Assembly (NCBI RefSeq): GCF_000024725.1
Contig: NC_013960.1
Location: forward strand, 2,156,001 to 2,220,000
Origin: Nitrosococcus halophilus Nc 4
GTDB taxonomy: Bacteria > Pseudomonadota > Gammaproteobacteria > Nitrosococcales > Nitrosococcaceae
Length of the DNA stretch: 64,000 nt
Reading direction: 5' to 3'
How positions within the stretch are numbered: the first letter of the stretch is position 1; each line of letters begins with the position of its first letter. The position numbers and the translations under genes are program-made. Positions 59,053 through 62,885 of the stretch are shown piece after piece. The notes below the pieces were generated by a model that made no database searches, was not told where the DNA came from, and worked only from the letters and a program-made list of their open reading frames with translations.

Positions 59053-60344
59053 TAGCTCCTCCAGGGGCAGTGCTGTTCACGGATATGTTGTTCGAAGTCT
59101 TCCCGGAAGTATTTGAGGGCGCTCTGCAATGGCTCCATGGCCCCTGGGGCGTGCATGCAGAAGGTTTTACCCGGCCCCAGAAATTGGGTGTGCATTTCCA
59201 GTATCTCCAAATCCTCCATTTGTCCCCGGCCTTCCTCGATTGCTTGTAGAATGTGCGCCACCCAGGGCAGGCCGTCCCGGCAGGGCGTACACCAGCCGCA
59301 GGACTCCTGGGCGAAGAACCGCTCCAGATTAAGGACCATAGCCACCGGACAAGTTTTGTCATCCAGAATGATCATTCCTCCTGTGCCCATACGGCTACCT
59401 ACCTTCATGACCGCATCGAAATCCATGGGAGTCTCCAAATGCTCCTCCACCAGGAAATCGGTGGAGGCACCGCCTGGCAGCAGCCCCCGGAAGGTATAGC
59501 CTTCTTGCATTCCTCCCGCATATTCCTCCAGAATCTCCCGAATTGGGGTGCCCATGGGAAGTTCCCAGGCGCCGGGCCGTTTGACCCGGCCACTGGTCCC
59601 ATAGATCTTGGTTCCTCCGTCTTCGCTGCGGCTTAGGTTTTGATACCACTCGGCGCCGTGATTGATGATATGGGGCACATTACAGAGGGTCTCCACGTTG
59701 TTCACTACGGTGGGTTTGCCCCATAGGCCGCAGGTCTGAGGATAGGGGGGTTTTTGACGGGGGATAGCCCGCTTGCCTTCCAAAGAGGTGACAAGGGCAG
59801 TTTCTTCCCCACAGATGTAGCGGCCGGCGCTAGTATGGATATGGAATTCCAGGCTAAATCCCGAACCTAGGATATGCTTTCCCAGCAAGCCCTGTTCACG
59901 GGCCTCCTGAGCCGCCTGCTTGAGGCGGTGGGCTGCCAATTTATATTCGTCACGGAGGAAGATATAGGCCACGTCGGCTTGGGTAGCGTAACTGCTCACA
60001 ATCATTGCCTCGAGCAATTGGTGGGGATCACCCTCCATGAGCAGGCGGTCCTTGAAGGTGCCCGGTTCCATTTCGTCGGCATTGGCGATCAGGTATTTGG
60101 GATGAGGGGCGTCATCGCCCATGGGGATGAAGCTCCACTTCATTCCCGTGGGAAAGCCTGCCCCGCCCCGGCCCCGGAGTTTGGAGTCTTTGACTGTTTG
60201 TTGAACCTCCTGAGGGCTCATTTCCCGGAGGGCTTTACGAAGCGCTTGGTAGCCACCAACCTGTTGGTATTGCTTGATATCCAGCGGTTCCCGGTCAGGG
60301 GTGATGTTTTGGGTGAGGGGAGTGGCCATAAATTTTCCATTCAT
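59052..60344 (-). CDS. nuoF: NADH-quinone oxidoreductase subunit F (NADH/FMN site)
   Basis: Binds NADH and FMN and holds cluster N3. The 430-residue product has the NAD/FMN motif LRGRGGAGFPTGMKWSF, ANADEMEPGTFKDRLLMEGD, AGRYICGEETALVTSLEG, and the N3 ligands SCGWCTPCRDG with a later Cys near residue 395. GGAGG lies 5 bases before the ATG, which overlaps the nuoE stop (ATGA). Confidence 0.97.
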   Translation of the reverse strand: MNGKFMATPLTQNITPDREPLDIKQYQQVGGYQALRKALREMSPQEVQQTVKDSKLRGRGGAGFPTGMKWSFIPMGDDAPHPKYLIANADEMEPGTFKDRLLMEGDPHQLLEAMIVSSYATQADVAYIFLRDEYKLAAHRLKQAAQEAREQGLLGKHILGSGFSLEFHIHTSAGRYICGEETALVTSLEGKRAIPRQKPPYPQTCGLWGKPTVVNNVETLCNVPHIINHGAEWYQNLSRSEDGGTKIYGTSGRVKRPGAWELPMGTPIREILEEYAGGMQEGYTFRGLLPGGASTDFLVEEHLETPMDFDAVMKVGSRMGTGGMIILDDKTCPVAMVLNLERFFAQESCGWCTPCRDGLPWVAHILQAIEEGRGQMEDLEILEMHTQFLGPGKTFCMHAPGAMEPLQSALKYFREDFEQHIREQHCPWRS

Positions 60345-60808
60345 TGATACCTCCCCAAAATCTCATCCACTTTCTCCGGGGCCAGATCCCGATGTAGATC
60401 CTCGTCCACCATCATCACCGGGGCATGGTTGCAATCCCCCAGACAACAGGTGGGCAATAGGGTAAACCGGCCATCCTTCGAGGTTTCCCCCAGCCCGATC
60501 CCCAAACGATTCTGCAAGTGTTGGTACAGCCGGTCGTAGCCCATGATCCAGCAGCTGACGCTGTTGCAGAGCAAAATGGCGTGCCTGCCCACCGGTCGAC
60601 GGAAGATCAGATTATAGAAGGTGGCCACCCCATCCAGTTCCTCGGCCGACATTCCTAGTATTTGTGCGACCTCGCGCAGATGCGGGTCAGAGACCCAACC
60701 ATGGCGCCGCTGCACTATCTTCAGTGCCTCCACCGAGGCCGCTTGCTTCTGGGGGTACTGTTTGAACTCCGTTTCGATCTCTTTTCTTTCTTCGTCACTT
60801 AGCATCAT
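60341..60808 (-). CDS. nuoE: NADH-quinone oxidoreductase subunit E (2Fe-2S)
   Basis: Thioredoxin-fold subunit with cluster N1a. The 155-residue product has its four ligands in LLCNSVSCWIMG and TCCLGDCNHAPVMMVDE. The start is ambiguous among TTG 60811, ATG 60808 and ATG 60805, none with a ribosome-binding site, because the region just upstream is the right end of an insertion remnant. The native leader was probably replaced, so expression of nuoE may rely on sequences from the inserted DNA. Confidence 0.93.
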   Translation of the reverse strand: MMLSDEERKEIETEFKQYPQKQAASVEALKIVQRRHGWVSDPHLREVAQILGMSAEELDGVATFYNLIFRRPVGRHAILLCNSVSCWIMGYDRLYQHLQNRLGIGLGETSKDGRFTLLPTCCLGDCNHAPVMMVDEDLHRDLAPEKVDEILGRYQ

Positions 60809-60811
60809 CAA

Positions 60812-61110
60812 ATTTTCGCGCTGGAGACCCCGCCGTTCAGGGCGGGGAGGAAAGCGCGCCTCCTTTTGTTATGTGCTAAAATAAACTTGTCCAAAGGCGC
60901 CCACCGGGTAAACAGTTTAAGGACACGTTCTTTGAAACTGATGAGTATGAGGTTCCGGCATGAACCGTTCGCCGGGTAAAACTCTGAACGTCTCCACAGA
61001 ATTATGGTGCTAGCCCTGAGCCGCAATCTCGCAACCCAGGGCTCCCAAGGTCCATCGGCCTTGGGACCGGCGCTGTAACCCGTCGGAATGTGGCGTCTTC
61101 GGGCGACCAT
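60812..61110 (-). mobile_element. IS200/IS605-type right-end remnant between nuoCD and nuoE
   Basis: Where complex I operons normally have nuoE directly after nuoD, about 330 bases intervene. Next to nuoE lies CCCCGCC-GTTCAG-GGCGGGG (60828-60847) inside the outer stem CGCGCT/AGCGCG (60817-60822 and 60853-60858). This double-hairpin arrangement is typical of IS605-family right ends. Further along the minus strand are other short inverted repeats, for example TCCCAAGG with CCTTGGGA. No transposase frame survives; a 100-codon minus-strand frame here is not credible as a gene. The left boundary is not defined, and no target-site duplication is expected for this family. Confidence 0.5.
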
Positions 61111-61142
61111 AAAGCTCCTTCCTTTAGGTGGGAGATTGGCTA

Positions 61143-62885
61143 CTAGCGATCCACATCTGCCATCACAAAGTCGATGCTACCTAGGGTAGCAATCAGATCA
61201 GAGACCATCTCCCCTCGGCTAATGAGGGGAATCATCTGGAGATGGGGGAAGGAGGGGGTGCGGATACGCACCCGATAAGGGTGCGGGTGGTCGTCGCTAA
61301 TAAGATAGTAGCTGTTGTTGCCCTTAGTAGCTTCAATCCCTACACAGGCTTCCCCTGCTGGAATCACGGGACCCCAGCTCACACTCAAGAAATGGGAAAT
61401 TAAGGTCTCAATATCATGCATGGAGTGTTCTTTGCGCGGCGGGGTGGTTAGGGGGTGATCGGCCTTATAGGGACCGGCGGGCATATGGTCGAGGCATTGC
61501 TGGATGATCCGCAGGCTTTGGCGCATTTCCTCGATGCGTACCCAGCAGCGGTCGTAACAGTCGCCGTGCTGGGCAATGGGGATATCGAACTGGAATTGTT
61601 CATATCCTGAGTAGGGACGTTGTTTACGAAAATCCCATTCCAGGCCGCAAGCCCGTAGACCTGGTCCCGTGACTCCCCATTCAATGGCTTCCGCAACGGT
61701 ATAATTCCCCACGCCCTGGGTGCGTTTTTTGAGAATCCGGTTTTGCATGGCAATTTTGTCGTACTCGTCCAGGCGTGGCGGTAAATAATGGAGAAAGTCT
61801 CGGATCAAAAACTTCCAACCGAGGGGCAGATCTTGGGCTACGCCGCCGATACGGAACCAGCTTGGATGCATCCGACCCCCACAGATGGCTTCGATAATGT
61901 CAAAAACCCGTTCCCTATCCGTAAACATGTAAAAGACCGGGGAAAGCTGGCCCACGTCTTGGGCGAAAGTGCCGTAAAACACCAGATGGCTGGCAATGCG
62001 AAAGAGCTCTGCCAGCATGACCCGAATGATCTGAGCCCGCTCCGGGACTTGGATGCCTGCCAACTGCTCGACGGCCAAGACATAGGGGAAATTGTTCATC
62101 ACCCCACCCAGATAGTCGATCCGATCGGTGTAGGGAATGTAGGTGTGCCAGGATTGGCGCTCACCCATTTTTTCAGCGCCCCGATGGTGATAACCGATAT
62201 CGGGAACCGCATCGACAATTTCTTCCCCATCGAGTTGCAGGACAATCCGGAAAACCCCATGGGCACTGGGGTGATTGGGGCCAAGGTTAAGGAACATAAA
62301 ATCAGTGCTTCTGGAGGTCCGTTTCATCCCCCAGTCTTCCGGTCTAAAACGTAGGGCCTCCTGTTCCCGCACCTGTTTCTCTTCAGACAGCTGAAAAGGG
62401 TCCATCTCGGTTGCCCGGGCCGGATAATCCTTGCGCAAGGGATGACTTTCCCAGGTCGGTGGCAAGAGAATACGGCGAAGATGAGGATGGCCTTCAAAGT
62501 TGATGCCAAAGAGGTCCCATACTTCCCGCTCATACCAGTTCGCGGCGGGCCAAATGGGGGTGATGGTCGGTAAGGAAGGAGATTCCCCCTTTAAGGGAAC
62601 TTTAAGACGGATATCCTCATTCCGGTCAAAGGATAAAAGGTGGTACACCAGGCTAAAATCGCTCTCTGGTTGAGCAGGGCGATGGGTTCGGACCCGCTCA
62701 TCAATGGCCGTTAGGTCATAGAGCATGGGATAGGGACGCTCCACCTCTGATTTGAGATATTTTAAAACTTTAGTAATTTGTTCTTTTTTTACCCAGAAAG
62801 TGGGAATCCCCTCGCCGGTTTCTTGCAAGATAAAGCTGGATGGGCCAAATTGGTGGTAGAGTTTCTCCGTAATAGGACTAGCCAT
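61143..62885 (-). CDS. nuoCD: NADH-quinone oxidoreductase fused subunits C and D
   Basis: A single 580-residue fusion, as in E. coli (600). Residues 1-170 are NuoC ([53 protein letters not shown]) and residues 190-580 are NuoD ([60 protein letters not shown]). NuoD forms the quinone pocket with NuoB. It begins 5 bases after nuoB and is followed by the insertion remnant. Confidence 0.97.

Follow-up and report, generated by a model that had tools for sequence, protein, structure and literature searches.

The palindrome-associated transposable elements (PATEs) of Haloquadratum walsbyi are short, lack a transposase gene, carry subterminal palindromes and cause no target duplication, some of them being of the IS605 type with the core deleted; no discussion of guide-RNA scaffolds was found in the parts of their account considered (PMC3119063). 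A PATE-like element of 271 nt in Halanaerobium hydrogeniformans, present in one copy, is made up of a hairpin at its left end, the final 58 nt of tnpB and a right end of 160 nt, and the word RNA was not found in the text of that paper (PMC7290912). In the omega-RNA of IS200/IS605 TnpB, the 3' end of the scaffold coincides with the right end, a subterminal hairpin lies at most 10 nt from that end, and the guide is located outside the element (PMC10278001). The element described here, which interrupts the complex I operon of Nitrosococcus halophilus Nc 4, is like the Haloquadratum PATEs in its anatomy and differs from them in that their host is an archaeon (PMC3119063). Its anatomy is nearly the same as that of the Halanaerobium element (PMC7290912), whereas its middle is not tnpB and several families occur in Nitrosococcus. 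Its scaffold agrees with the TnpB omega-RNA in the right-end layout (PMC10278001), but there is neither a tnpB in cis nor a match to an Rfam family.

The window analysed is a stretch of 64,000 nucleotides (G000:C2:2156001-2220000, where G000 is the window's own genome) that contains the nuo operon on its - strand. About 331 bases separate the nuoCD stop codon (61143-61145) from the ATG of nuoE at 60808, compared with -31 to +5 bases at the remaining nuo junctions within the window. The original prediction had singled out this gap in an otherwise compact operon and ascribed it to an insertion of the IS200/IS605 type. Both points are borne out by an empty site in the same-genus genome G003 and by ends that the insert has in common with a tnpB-bearing element, L091. 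G003 is the closest congener, with a nuoE 90% identical to that of the window, and its nuoCD-nuoE junction (...GATCGCTAATTATGCTAAG...) is uninterrupted. When the sequences that flank the insert in the window are joined, up to 60808 and from 61144 on, the resulting 40-base site is identical to G003 at 36 of 40 positions; because this alignment is free of gaps, it defines the exact limits of the element (60809-61143, 335 bp; Table 1). The nuoCD stop codon was split, TAA in G003 having become TAG in the window with its last base supplied by the element, while nuoE is intact and has its ATG directly against the element's other end. The gap between nuoCD and nuoE is a real insertion.

Comparing the spacing in relatives, as had been suggested, thus gave an insert-free junction in G003 and short spacers of unrelated sequence in G001 and G002. 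If the insert were a regulatory spacer with no relation to transposons, this would fit its structured nature and its leader position in the complex I operon. This explanation deserves next to no credence: the 335-base insert is absent from all three congeners (G001, G002 and G003), most of 80 other loci have nuoD and nuoE closely spaced, and the ends are common to the insert and tnpB elements. Conservation of the spacer across genera, named at the outset as the finding that would speak against an insertion sequence, is not observed: the congeners lack it, and 83 other nuoD-nuoE junctions have a median spacing of 19 bases. Spacers of unusual length between nuoD and nuoE (214-746 bases) do occur in other genomes, at L021, L046, L048, L052 and L063.

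Table 1. Positions in the window of the inserted element, its parts and its flanking genes
Feature	Position	Strand	Evidence or remark
Whole tnpB-less IS605-type element, 335 bp	60809..61143	+	Joined flanks compared with the G003 empty site
Target / transposon-adjacent motif (TAM) ATCAT, complementary to the nuoE start ATGAT; sister copies have TTCAT	60804..60808	+	Same position in L085, L087, L089, L150 and the L174 family
Left-end double hairpin, outer CGCGCT/AGCGCG, inner CCCCGCC/GGCGGGG	60817..60858	+	Inverted repeat; also upstream of the L091 tnpB start
Left-end hairpin arms	60817-60834 / 60841-60858		Inner stem CCCCGCC/GGCGGGG
Shine-Dalgarno-like AAAAGGAGG	60859..60867	-	50 nt before the nuoE ATG linearly, 8 nt with the left-end hairpin folded
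Possible extended -10 TGCTAAAAT, weak	60877..60882	+	By reading; TATAAT at a like position in L003, L153 and L150; promoter scan negative
22-base module GGCGCCCACCGGGTAAACAGTT, tnpB-less elements only	60896..60917	+	4 copies in 59 relatives
Remnant of a tnpB 3' end with a frameshift: one frame reads RNLA... up to 61078, a second one SIG...NVA	61013..61105	+	Translation compared with L091 and L105 TnpB C-termini; weak by itself
Scaffold hairpin 1	61043..61066	+	
Scaffold hairpin 2	61067..61086	+	Two-sided changes in 6 of 6 pairs
Scaffold hairpin 3, bulged, ACCATA at its end	61089..61111	+	
Right-end subterminal hairpin	61115..61134	+	85% match to the right end after tnpB in L105/L002
Right terminus ATTGGCTAC (GTTAC / GTTTAC in sister copies)	61135..61143	+	
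Position of the would-be guide TAGCGATCCACATCTGCC, complement of the nuoCD 3' end	61144..61163	+	The G003 empty nuo site is the only other match among four genus genomes
nuoCD; stop TAG, whose third base comes from the element	61143..62885	-	
nuoE, intact, ATG immediately after the element	60341..60808	-	

Several features place the insert in the IS200/IS605 family. It is inserted 3' of a fixed short target that was not duplicated, as indicated by the gap-free empty site and by the TTCAT or ATCAT that precedes the left end in sister copies. Subterminal hairpins are present at both ends (60817-60858 and 61115-61134) and terminal inverted repeats are absent, and the ends recur in tnpB-bearing L091. 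The element contains no transposase gene and no ORF of the size usual in the family, just a frameshifted tnpB tail; its middle (60880-61010) is not tnpB sequence, which blurs the position of the deletion relative to tnpB. We consider it very probable that the insert is a non-autonomous element of this family without tnpA and tnpB, i.e. a PATE, which descends from a tnpB-bearing ancestor and has kept the scaffold. The insert folds better than its shuffled versions on both strands (z -2.2 on +, -3.1 on -). Two candidate features were rejected: a hammerhead reading of GAAACTGATGAG on the + strand near 60936-60947 has, by reading, its two motifs in the wrong order, and an ORF of 100 aa on the - strand (61110-60808) shares sequence with the hairpins and, apart from a conserved stretch of DNA, is not represented in other copies.

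The orientation of the element follows from its relatives. A BLAST search with the insert located its two ends in congener G002 (L091/L087), where they lie 1.2 kb from each other and are oriented relative to one another as in the window. The G002 element (L091/L198) is 1260 bp long and of the tnpB-only type, with an intact TnpB (Pfam Cas12f1-like_TNB, E 7.6e-23). It resembles the window element in both ends, the TTCAT target and the scaffold layout, and differs from it by the presence of the 362-aa TnpB and the absence of the 22-base module. Its tnpB start adjoins the end that matches the nuoE side, and its stop adjoins the end that matches the nuoCD side. A tnpB C-terminus in the window's own genome likewise precedes the same right end (L105/L002), and the L104 element, which represents a second family, has the same order of ends. 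Because of this tnpB order in L091, L105 and L104, the + strand of the window is the top strand of the element, antisense to the nuo operon; the double hairpin at nuoE is the left end, and the right end lies at the nuoCD stop codon.

The double hairpin adjoining nuoE had been recognised in the original prediction, where it was likened to a right end, with a possible relic guide pointing at nuoE inside the nuo mRNA. That a palindromic hairpin looks alike on both strands favours such a view, but the order of the ends around tnpB in the three relatives contradicts it, as do the covariation and the excess of G-U pairs of the scaffold on the + strand described below, and we regard it as highly improbable. 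Since the right end adjoins nuoCD, the TnpB guide would be nuoCD sequence (TAGCGATCCACATCTGCC, flanking the element at the 3' end of nuoCD) on the opposite strand, antisense to the operon, rather than the start of nuoE, and the nuo mRNA would carry just the complement of the scaffold.

The last 102 bases of the element are predicted to form four hairpins in the layout that is also predicted for its tnpB-bearing relatives. In L165/L091 and L166/L105 the scaffold overlaps the 3' end of tnpB and stops at the right end, as is characteristic of TnpB omega-RNAs. An unfitted alignment (A1), which comprises four sequences, has 95% of its cells paired and 12 pairs with two-sided changes, and none of 500 shuffles reached this. 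In a 13-sequence alignment (A2), two-sided changes occur in 27 of 31 pairs and 90.6% of the cells are paired, which no shuffle reached, and 58 G-U stand against 4 A-C among paired cells, the pairing and the G-U count being inflated by the fit of this alignment to the model structure; slid controls gave at most 53% paired. This large excess of G-U over A-C places the structure on the + strand, which is antisense to nuo. A conserved RNA structure with compensatory changes, another characteristic of TnpB omega-RNAs, is therefore apparent in these alignments, and judged by the tests of sequence and structure the window element holds a scaffold of the TnpB omega-RNA type. To this extent the original prediction of a guide-RNA-type scaffold inside the insert is supported by the four covarying hairpins.

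The search for a known omega-RNA family that had been proposed with it returned no match in Rfam at the gathering score and no useful one at relaxed thresholds (HgcC, 16.9 bits compared with a cutoff of 50). A covariance model of the scaffold brought in more copies across the genus; in 274 gammaproteobacterial genomes, at 1e-4 and with strict filters, its matches were confined to the window's genome and one genome of another family. With up to 3 mismatches allowed, a single further match to the would-be guide is present in the four genus genomes, namely the G003 empty nuo site with 1 mismatch.

The window element is single-copy, with only short stretches matching elsewhere in the genus at the DNA level. 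Among the tnpB-less elements with the same scaffold or ends are L003 and L153 in the window's genome, L088 in G003 and L150 in G001. Further tnpB-less copies are L171/L170, L172 and L174-L177. The L174 family, in which the scaffold is accompanied by an extra terminal hairpin, comprises in the window's genome three copies of about 290 bases and L177, apparently without a left end, and in G003 L172. The 22-base module occurs among 59 relatives in four copies (three in the window's genome, one in G003), all of them in mini-elements without tnpB and between the left end and the scaffold. An orthologous tnpB-less scaffold occupies the same place in two species, L171 (G000:C2:1498262-1498371) and L170 (G003:C1:3363154-3363263); there it adjoins a 252-aa ORF (MCTLVILRRPNHEW...), and the left end is unrecognised. 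Looking for tnpB elsewhere in the window's genome, as had been advised, revealed about 46 matches to the tnpB zinc ribbon versus 17 to Y1 transposases (six strong), none of the latter tied to the ends of the window element. The chromosome of G000 contains many tnpB-only elements and fragments. The closest TnpB encoded there is a C-terminal remnant of approximately 142 residues with 71% identity to the L091 TnpB.

From sequence comparisons one may further propose, in addition to the PATE explanation, that the element is a stand-alone mobile guide-RNA gene: a promoter of its own would give rise to a guide RNA of about 250 nt, which together with TnpB in trans would cut insert-free nuo junctions and thereby keep the tnpB-less element in place. 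In the case of IscB, stand-alone omega-RNAs are known. The scaffold has been kept in several tnpB-less families with strand-specific covariation, the L174 family has spread as a tnpB-less unit, and the guide matches only the congener's empty nuo site, beside CATAAT (CATCAT in the window). TATAAT is present between the left end and the scaffold in L003, L153 and L150; the window copy has TGCTAAAAT only, and its promoter scan reported no promoter and one terminator-like site at chance level. The lack of an intact cognate TnpB in the window's genome, apart from the 142-residue remnant, and the changed TAM at the G003 site also argue against such a gene, and we view it as a tentative addition that is rather unlikely to be correct.

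The left ends follow TTCAT (ATCAT in the window), and since TTCAT is the complement of an ATGAA start, IS605-type left ends come to sit on start codons. Of 11 junctions examined, 7 coincide exactly with the ATG of an antisense ORF, each ORF encoding 155 aa or more; six different genes are affected, L089 and L150 lying at the same gene in two species. Left ends on start codons include those of the window (60804-60808), L087, L089, L150, L175, L176 and L196. Within the window, start codons account for 12 of the 337 TTCAT/ATCAT sites and for 12 of the 49 such sites outside coding sequence, a rough count because the genes are picks of long ORFs. Most of the start-codon bias results from target choice plus the loss of harmful insertions. 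L196 (G153:C322:11000-16000), from another gammaproteobacterial family, has two opposed IS605-type left ends a few hundred bp apart, one of them on the start of a 354-aa ORF.

The original prediction that nuoE has no visible ribosome-binding site is correct for the linear sequence, but folding of the hairpin would bring AAAAGGAGG (60867-60859, - strand), which lies immediately past it, to a distance of 8 bases from the ATG. Structure modelling thus allows a co-opted leader, compatible with a PATE origin: the left-end hairpin in the nuo mRNA would place AAAAGGAGG 8 nt from the nuoE start as its own ribosome-binding site, replacing the coupling to nuoCD. The left-end hairpin is predicted to be stable and GGAGG to be unpaired (0.86-1.0), nuoE is intact and 90% identical to that of the congener, and the arrangement of GGAGG, hairpin, 8 nt and ATG recurs at L085 and at the 354-aa ORF start of L196 in the other family. 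On the other hand, the nuoE start is predicted to pair with upstream element sequence, the layout is a property of the end that does not require selection, and a second copy of complex I may make this nuoE less necessary; we therefore hold co-option to be possible but rather unlikely. A second nuoE (L143, G000:C2:3811014-3811475), 46% identical and probably part of a second complex I gene set, is found in all four genus genomes.

For the PATE itself, we propose descent from a tnpB-bearing element like the 1260-bp one of G002, in which nearly all of tnpB would have been lost and the four-hairpin 3' scaffold kept. The element entered the lineage after its split from G003, probably moved by TnpA in trans, and landed on the + strand 3' of TCAT, a target that complements the start codon of nuoE, and within the stop codon of nuoCD. 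The scaffold may have been kept because guide-RNA-bearing derivatives were once favoured by TnpB in trans. The present effect on the cell is presumably in the main a longer nuoCD-nuoE leader that would uncouple nuoE from the translation of nuoCD.

The empty site and the full-length relative settle the orientation and the origin of the insert, and the preference for start codons suggests why operon insertions of such elements are tolerated. A broader view, which we put forward with considerable reserve, is that Nitrosococcus may hold mobile protein-less guide-RNA genes composed of left end, promoter, 5' stem-loop, scaffold and right end. Several tnpB-less families would keep the scaffold under selection, TnpB encoded elsewhere would serve as the shared nuclease, TTCAT would steer the elements onto start codons, and the left end would act as a replacement leader. 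If the scaffold in the tnpB-less copies is expressed, guide RNAs for TnpB would move independently and work in trans; this, if true, would bear on how RNA-guided nucleases parted from their guides.
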